A stretch of DNA of 64,000 nucleotides from an uncultured Bacteroidota bacterium. Lineage in GTDB: Bacteria > Bacteroidota > Bacteroidia > Flavobacteriales > Flavobacteriaceae. Below the pieces are notes generated by a model. That model searched no databases. It was not told where the DNA came from and was given only the letters and a program-made list of their open reading frames with translations. The position numbers and the translations under genes were made by a program. Shown here piece after piece: positions 1 through 2,268 of this stretch. The stretch's first letter is position 1; the number at the start of each line of letters is the position of its first letter. The stretch is taken from NCBI GenBank assembly GCA_902618245.1, contig CACMZR010000003.1, positions 124,001-188,000 on the forward strand, written 5' to 3'.

Positions 1-36
1 AAGGTTTCCCCAACGGTAGGATACAAAAAAATAGAA

Positions 37-330
37 ATGGCTAAGAAATCCATTGAAGACAAGGCTGTTAAAAAGACAACAGCAAAGTCAGCTACAGAGA
101 AAAAAGCAACTACTAAAGCGATATCTGTTGAGAAAACAACAGCAAAATCAACTACAGCGAAAAAAACAACTACTAAAGCAGCATCTGCTAATAAGACAAC
201 ATCAAAGTCAAGTTCAGCGAAAAAAACAACTACTAAAGCAGCATCTGCTAAGAAGACAACATCAAAGTCAAGTGCTGCGAAAAAAACAACTACTAAAGTA
301 ACATCTGCTAAGAAGACAACAGCTAAGTAA
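37..330 (+). pseudogene. Lys/Thr/Ala/Ser-rich N-terminal extension of ribosomal protein S1, separated from the S1 body by an in-frame TAA
   Basis: ATG at 37 is in the same frame as the S1 ORF at 544; the only stop between them is TAA 328-330 and the repeat continues in frame after it. Confidence 0.7.
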
Positions 331-456
331 ACTGCTGCGAAAAAAACAACTACTAAAGCAGCATCTGCTAAGAAGACAACGTCAAGGTCAACTACAGCGA
401 AAAAAACAACTACTAAAGCTGCTTCTGCTACAAAGACAACAGTTGAATTATCAAAC
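97..456 (+). repeat. Six tandem 60-bp coding repeat units (about KKTTTKAASAKKTTSKSSxA)
   Basis: gcgaaaaaaacaactactaaagc recurs exactly every 60 bp at 157, 217, 277, 337 and 397, with a diverged copy at 97. Confidence 0.93.
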
Positions 457-543
457 TCGAAAACGAATACTGAGACTGAATTAACCAAAAATGTAGACAG
501 TGAAAAATCTTCAATATCTAGGACAGAAAAAAAATCCGAGTTT

Positions 544-2268
544 TTGGATAACTTTAATTGGAAAAGTTATGCAGAAGGTATCGAGGTTATTGACAATAAA
601 AAACTTGAGGAGTTTGAGAAATTAGTCAAAGATAATTTTGTTGATACATCAGATGAGGATGTTATAGAAGGTACAGTAGTTTATATGACTGACAGGGAGG
701 CAATTATAGATATTAATGCTAAATCTGAGGGAGTAATATCTCTTAATGAATTTAGATATAATCCTGAATTAAAGGTTGGAGACAAAGTAGAGGTTATTGT
801 CGACACACGTGAAGACAGAACAGGTCAATTGGTTCTTTCTCATAGGAAGGCCAGAGTAATAAAAGCTTGGGATAGAGTGAATAATGCCCATGATAATTCT
901 GAAATTGTTAGTGGATTTGTAAAATGTAGGACCAAAGGGGGAATGATTGTTGATGTATTTGGCATTGAAGCTTTTTTACCTGGTTCACAAATTGACGTCA
1001 AACCTATCAGAGATTATGATCAATATGTGAATAAAACAATGGAATTTAAAGTGGTAAAAATTAATCACGAATTCAAAAACGTCGTAGTTTCTCATAAAGC
1101 GCTAATTGAAGCTGATATTGAAGAACAAAAGAAAGAAATTATAGGTCAATTAGAAAAAGGCCAAGTACTCGAGGGAATAGTTAAAAATATAACATCATAC
1201 GGAGTATTTATTGATCTTGGTGGCGTTGACGGATTAATCCATATAACAGATCTTTCGTGGAGCAGAATAAATCACCCAAGTGAAATTTTAGAGCTGGATC
1301 AAAAATTAAATGTAGTAATACTTGATTTTGATGATAATAAATCTCGCATACAATTAGGACTCAAACAATTAAGTGATCACCCATGGGATAAACTTTCAAA
1401 AGATCTAAAAGAGGGAGATAAAGTTAAAGGGAAAGTTGTAATTATTGCAGATTACGGTGCTTTCATCGAAATAGAGGAAGGAGTTGAAGGACTTGTGCAT
1501 GTTTCCGAAATGTCCTGGTCTACTCATTTGCGCTCTGCACAAGATTTTGTTAAAGTGGGAGATGAAGTCGACGCTGTTATTTTATCACTTGATAGGGAAT
1601 CAAGAAAAATGTCTCTTGGAATAAAGCAGATTTCACCAGATCCATGGACAGACATCACATCAAAATATCCACTAGGATCAAAACATACAGGATTAGTAAG
1701 AAACTTTACGAATTTTGGAGTTTTCATTGAACTTGAAGAAGGAATTGACGGGTTGGTATATATTTCAGATTTATCTTGGACTAAAAAAGTAAAACATCCA
1801 TCAGAAGTTTTAACACTGGGAGAAAAAATTGATGTTATTGTTCTTGAATTAGATGTAGACGGGCGTAAACTTAGTTTAGGTCACAAACATACTAAAGAAA
1901 ATCCATGGGATAAGTATGAGAAAGATTTTGCCTTAAACACTACACATGAAGGTGAGATTTTTGAAGTTTTAGACAAAGGAGCTACTATCCAATTTAACGA
2001 AGATATCACTGCTTTTATACCTCTTAGGCATATGGAGAAAGAGGATGGGTCCAAACTCAAAAAAGGTGAAAAAGTAGCGCTAAAAATTATAGAATTTAAT
2101 AAAGATTTTAAAAGAGTTGTCGCTTCACATACTTCAACTTTTAAGGATCAAGAATTAAAAAACACTAAAAGATCTACAGCTAAACTCGCTTCTACAAATC
2201 CTGAGAAAACAACATTAGGGGATCTAGATGCTTTGGCAAATCTGAAGGATAAAATGGATGATAAATAA
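544..2268 (+). CDS. rpsA: 30S ribosomal protein S1 (track start is TTG; native N-terminus probably further upstream)
   Basis: Multiple S1 repeats (e.g. GQVLEGIVKNITSYGVFIDLGGVDGLIHITDLSW) and Bacteroidota-type FLDNFNWKSYAEG start region. Confidence 0.95.
   Translation: MDNFNWKSYAEGIEVIDNKKLEEFEKLVKDNFVDTSDEDVIEGTVVYMTDREAIIDINAKSEGVISLNEFRYNPELKVGDKVEVIVDTREDRTGQLVLSHRKARVIKAWDRVNNAHDNSEIVSGFVKCRTKGGMIVDVFGIEAFLPGSQIDVKPIRDYDQYVNKTMEFKVVKINHEFKNVVVSHKALIEADIEEQKKEIIGQLEKGQVLEGIVKNITSYGVFIDLGGVDGLIHITDLSWSRINHPSEILELDQKLNVVILDFDDNKSRIQLGLKQLSDHPWDKLSKDLKEGDKVKGKVVIIADYGAFIEIEEGVEGLVHVSEMSWSTHLRSAQDFVKVGDEVDAVILSLDRESRKMSLGIKQISPDPWTDITSKYPLGSKHTGLVRNFTNFGVFIELEEGIDGLVYISDLSWTKKVKHPSEVLTLGEKIDVIVLELDVDGRKLSLGHKHTKENPWDKYEKDFALNTTHEGEIFEVLDKGATIQFNEDITAFIPLRHMEKEDGSKLKKGEKVALKIIEFNKDFKRVVASHTSTFKDQELKNTKRSTAKLASTNPEKTTLGDLDALANLKDKMDDK

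Follow-up and report, generated by a model that had tools for sequence, protein, structure and literature searches.

A private in-frame stop codon in the repetitive N-terminal extension of flavobacterial ribosomal protein S1, probably an isolated single-base event, and a candidate autoregulatory leader upstream

Results

Organization of the rpsA locus

The window, the 64,000-nucleotide stretch of contig C3 analysed here, is part of a flavobacterial genome of 1.83 Mb (86%-complete, 32 contigs) and opens at the 3' end of the rpsA leader, followed by rpsA itself (Table 1). From the ATG at 37 to 2268 the gene occupies one frame whose sole interruption is the TAA at 328-330, in agreement with the original prediction that the open reading frames 37-330 and 544-2268 share a frame separated by this codon alone. 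The downstream frame had been named ribosomal protein S1, and this identification is borne out by a match of the protein to NCBIfam NF004953 over residues 2-573 (918 bits against a cut-off of 720) and by six S1-domain stretches in the core. The locus thus resembles bS1 (NF004953/PRK06299) in its full six-domain core above cut-off and single copy, and the family match spans the whole core; it differs in the long lysine-rich repeat N-terminal extension, where family isolates mostly carry tails of 31-49 residues, and in that the frame from its own start is broken by one TAA, in this assembly only. The genome holds one rpsA; a backup copy was sought, and the sole other match is a short S1-domain stretch on contig C4. 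The dN/dS of the S1 core reflects strong purifying selection, so the lineage was dependent on S1 until very recently.

Table 1. Features of the rpsA leader and gene, in window coordinates
Feature	Positions	Strand	Remarks
Leader loop-loop helix, 3' strand GGTTTCC	3-9	+	5' partner GGAACACC upstream of the window
Leader hairpin P1, 3' strand GGTAGGA	15-21	+	pairs with TTCTACC upstream of the window
rpsA start ATG	37-39	+	conserved genus-wide
S1 N-terminal extension	37-543	+	169 codons, net charge +33
60-bp in-frame tandem repeat	65-442	+	6.3 copies
Longest exact repeat, left copy (44 bp)	217-260	+	pair flanks the stop
In-frame TAA	328-330	+	TCA in the five other full units
Longest exact repeat, right copy (44 bp)	337-380	+	pair flanks the stop
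TTG, first in-frame standard start after the stop	544-546	+	not conserved, weak context
S1 core	544-2268	+	intact; dN/dS about 0.03

The N-terminal extension and its repeats

The extension is rich in lysine, threonine, alanine and serine and contains 60-bp units in frame with S1. The codon equivalent to the TAA is TCA in the units at 88, 148, 208, 268 and 388, as expected if one of six units has undergone a single C-to-A change, which had been proposed; a degenerate seventh unit carries TTA at this position. The longest exact repeat within 37-543 is 44 bp, with its two copies in frame and 120 bp apart, so that a slip between them would delete the TAA in frame.

Where the extension can be read, in 27 genus members, it begins at a conserved start, MAKK or a near variant, and continues in the S1 frame for 68-186 codons; its lengths among close relatives are 109, 169 and 186 codons. 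Comparison among these genomes indicates that the extension is normally translated in the genus: about 5% of single substitutions within it would create a stop, and given a synonymous divergence of 0.33-0.41 to the nearest relatives, a tail that was not translated would be expected to have gathered stops. In the wider family S1 always begins at an upstream ATG and in no case at the leucine matching TTG 544. Tails there measure mostly about 30-50 residues in isolates (31-49); a few have 18-19, and that of Flavobacterium sp. Sd200 has 10. The length of the tail is thus dispensable. The short tail of most family isolates is acidic-looking, and that of the genus has grown into a repeat extension of 68-186 residues that is often strongly basic. 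Decay of the tail after the stop was also considered; dN/dS is high in the last 29 tail codons across all three close genomes, the stop-free pair included, making this measure uninformative.

Distribution of the stop among relatives

The extension is open in 25 of the 27 genus members in which it can be read, and none of the other 26 shares the TAA at 328-330. The two genomes whose S1 proteins are 98% (G028) and 97% (G010) identical, with matching DNA about 93-95% identical, are both open at this site. Judged from these alignments the TAA is private and isolated, and across related genomes neither it nor TTG 544 is conserved. A search of viral contigs for DNA of the same species returned none.

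Three other rpsA genes in the genus contain stops, all elsewhere: in the extension of G029 (locus L027) and in the S1 core of G006 (L022; TAA at core codon 207, where relatives have CAA or CAG) and G026 (L019; TGA at codon 383, glycine in all relatives). Either core stop would remove a large part of S1 and is difficult to accept as genuine, and all three are probably base errors. G006 has a further stop inside PNPase. Together, the core stops and the PNPase stop indicate that nonsense errors occur in genomes of this genus.

Assembly quality

Comparison with G031, covering about 1.36 Mb of the 1.83 Mb, finds no interior nonsense codon besides that of rpsA in 535 genes (190,945 codons), the seven other listed stop matches falling within the first 9% or last 4% of their alignments. 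Frameshift candidates number one or two in 541 genes. At contig C3 about 74244, outside the window, a 136-codon gene has a candidate frameshift relative to G031, either real or an assembly error. With about 5% of substitutions giving stops, one nonsense codon would be expected to accompany about 20 random coding substitution errors. A base error in rpsA is still plausible, yet the assembly is not error-ridden. Mixing of units or repeat collapse as the source of the TAA was rejected: no other unit has TAA, and an artefact of this kind is unlikely because the repeats, with 44 bp the longest exact copy, are short enough for reads to span. The earlier suggestion of a sequencing or repeat-assembly error is therefore retained in its first part, as one remaining option beside a private recent allele, and abandoned in its second.

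Routes past the stop

As predicted, 331-543 has no in-frame ATG, GTG or TTG ahead of TTG 544; the next in-frame start is ATG 685. The leucine aligned to TTG 544 is encoded by TTG in 3 of 30 relatives and otherwise by TTA, CTA, CTT or CTG. Within this genome the TTG stands at the 9th percentile when ranked with 459 conserved starts and at the 60th when ranked with ordinary internal TTGs; the folding energy at the site is -12.7 kcal/mol, where starts average -5.9 and internal TTGs -9.2. Flavobacterial initiation prefers unstructured RNA and A at -3 (PMC6847099), and TTG 544 has neither conservation in relatives nor this unstructured A-rich context. These properties speak against the alternative start that the original prediction had placed here. 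Reinitiation would have to bridge 213 nt from the stop.

Decoding of the stop fares no better. No UUA-anticodon (UAA-reading) tRNA is present among the 30 tRNA loci examined in the 86%-complete genome, which counts against a suppressor tRNA, and TAA is the main stop codon, ending 278 of 459 genes; the suggested readthrough thus gains no support. Slippage at A-runs, including an A7 run before the stop, would lead into stops at 294 and 299 in the other two frames. From the nucleotide sequence no bypass signal for the TAA is visible.

The rpsA 5' leader

The rpsA leader (contig C3 123931-124036) starts just upstream of the window and takes in window positions 1-36. A promoter box, TAnnTTTGC, lies 105-110 nt before the rpsA start in 27 of 27 genus members examined. 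In its genus form the leader contains the hairpins GCTTTT/GAAAGC and TTCTGTnn/nnACAGAA, whose loops are joined to each other by two helices, AATTG/CAATT and GGAAAA(A)CC/GGTTTTCC. The leader is accordingly modelled as a two-hairpin kissing (double) pseudoknot, conserved with strong covariation in three flavobacterial groups. Pairing over the four helices reaches 93.5%, 91.6% and 88.4% in the three group alignments, where 11, 15 and 15 pairs have changed on both sides; drawing the structures from one row per alignment favours the percentage paired and does not explain the double changes. When the partners are slid by 1-3 columns as a control, pairing is 34-58%. The loop-loop helices also covary, as with GGAGCAACC and GGTGCTCC in G032.

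Neither the leader of this genome nor that of Kriegella matches an Rfam family, and scanning five more loci gave no match that overlaps the leader. A covariance model of the nested part only was searched under strict filters against 119 genomes of the order. Fifteen of them have a single match, and in 3 of the 3 matched genomes with a known rpsA position it lies just upstream of that gene. The model is narrow: it does not include the group of the window's own genome, which falls below threshold.

A covarying structure upstream of a ribosomal-protein gene, conserved in the 5' UTR, is what the leader shares with the r-leaders of PMC7247131; it differs in that no rpsA (S1) leader is among the 20 described there, and in being a two-hairpin kissing pseudoknot, a candidate S1 target, without an Rfam match in the leaders tested. 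Translational autoregulation of gammaproteobacterial rpsA is established (reviewed in PMC10931766), and from this autogenous control we infer that S1 may bind here too, making the element a candidate S1 autoregulatory leader. Both systems have a structured rpsA initiation region that does not depend on a Shine-Dalgarno sequence.

Discussion

The TAA is best explained, with a probability of roughly 0.7, as an isolated, private single-base event, be it a base error or a nonsense allele of very recent origin, and not as a fixed working feature. This reading is favoured because the stop is private, the core intact, the start and leader conserved and no bypass signal apparent, and it is supported by the TAA being one substitution from five sister units. 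The change could be a sequencing, amplification or consensus error in the assembly, or a very recent nonsense mutation in the sequenced cell or strain; in either case it would have placed a TAA in a translated, length-dispensable S1 repeat tail. Functional cells of the lineage would start S1 at ATG 37 and translate the whole extension, as relatives do, and reads or sister cells would be expected to show mostly the open frame. Nonsense base errors in single-cell and metagenome assemblies offer a parallel, in that they too are private single substitutions in genes that must work, as in rpsA of G006 and G026; the present case differs in the lack of any other interior nonsense codon in the 190,945 codons compared. 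That lack weakens a simple error, as does the position of the stop ahead of every S1 domain, since a genuine stop might be tolerated there.

The same two observations lend some weight to a real and tolerated stop, with a tail-less S1 of 574 residues made from TTG 544 by new internal initiation or reinitiation. Tail length is evidently free in the family, down to the 10 residues of Flavobacterium sp. Sd200 and the 18-19 of others, and the product would be like the short-tailed S1 of other flavobacteria. Still, we consider this unlikely: the TTG is rare among relatives and scores like an ordinary internal one, the site is more structured than either starts or internal TTGs, no wider-family member starts there, and reinitiation would have to span the 213 nt given above. 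Equally doubtful is the history it would entail, in which the lineage cut off its lysine-rich tail by nonsense mutation and recruited a new UUG start, and in which slips between repeats could bring the tail back. The exact copies flanking the stop in frame, and the variation in extension length among close relatives, could instead point to a population switch, the TAA unit being one allele of an array of changing unit number, in which slippage between the 44-bp copies reopens the frame. We regard this as improbable, since no second allele is seen and switching off an essential protein should kill the cell unless another start is used; other 60-bp pairs, without a stop, are equally prone to slip.

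Programmed readthrough or recoding at the UAA to give full-length S1 is more improbable again. It has in its favour that the frame stays open beyond the stop, whereas such a system would couple a conserved stop to a decoding factor, and here the stop is private, the 30 tRNA loci examined include no suppressor, TAA is in common use as a terminator and A-run slippage is blocked. Lowest of all we place two genes, a small H1-like protein (37-330) followed by S1 (from 544). Positions 37-327 do weakly match H1-like HC2 families, but at 20.5 against 80, 18.6 against 135 and 25.1 against 40 bits they lie far under the curated cut-offs, and 37-330 does not qualify as a histone H1-like HC2 protein. Two separate features had been predicted to show in relatives as the same stop with a conserved start near 544; instead the relatives lack the stop and encode a single continuous protein.

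If the stop were real, an essential ribosomal protein would have survived an upstream nonsense codon by recruiting a new start, and this in a phylum where Shine-Dalgarno pairing is hardly used. As an isolated single-base event, which is how we judge it, the TAA mainly cautions against accepting nonsense codons in essential genes of such assemblies before reads have been checked. Of greater importance than the stop is the rpsA leader: S1 has been proposed as a substitute for Shine-Dalgarno pairing in these bacteria (PMC6847099), and the covarying structure of the leader provides a testable handle on how the level of S1 may be controlled.
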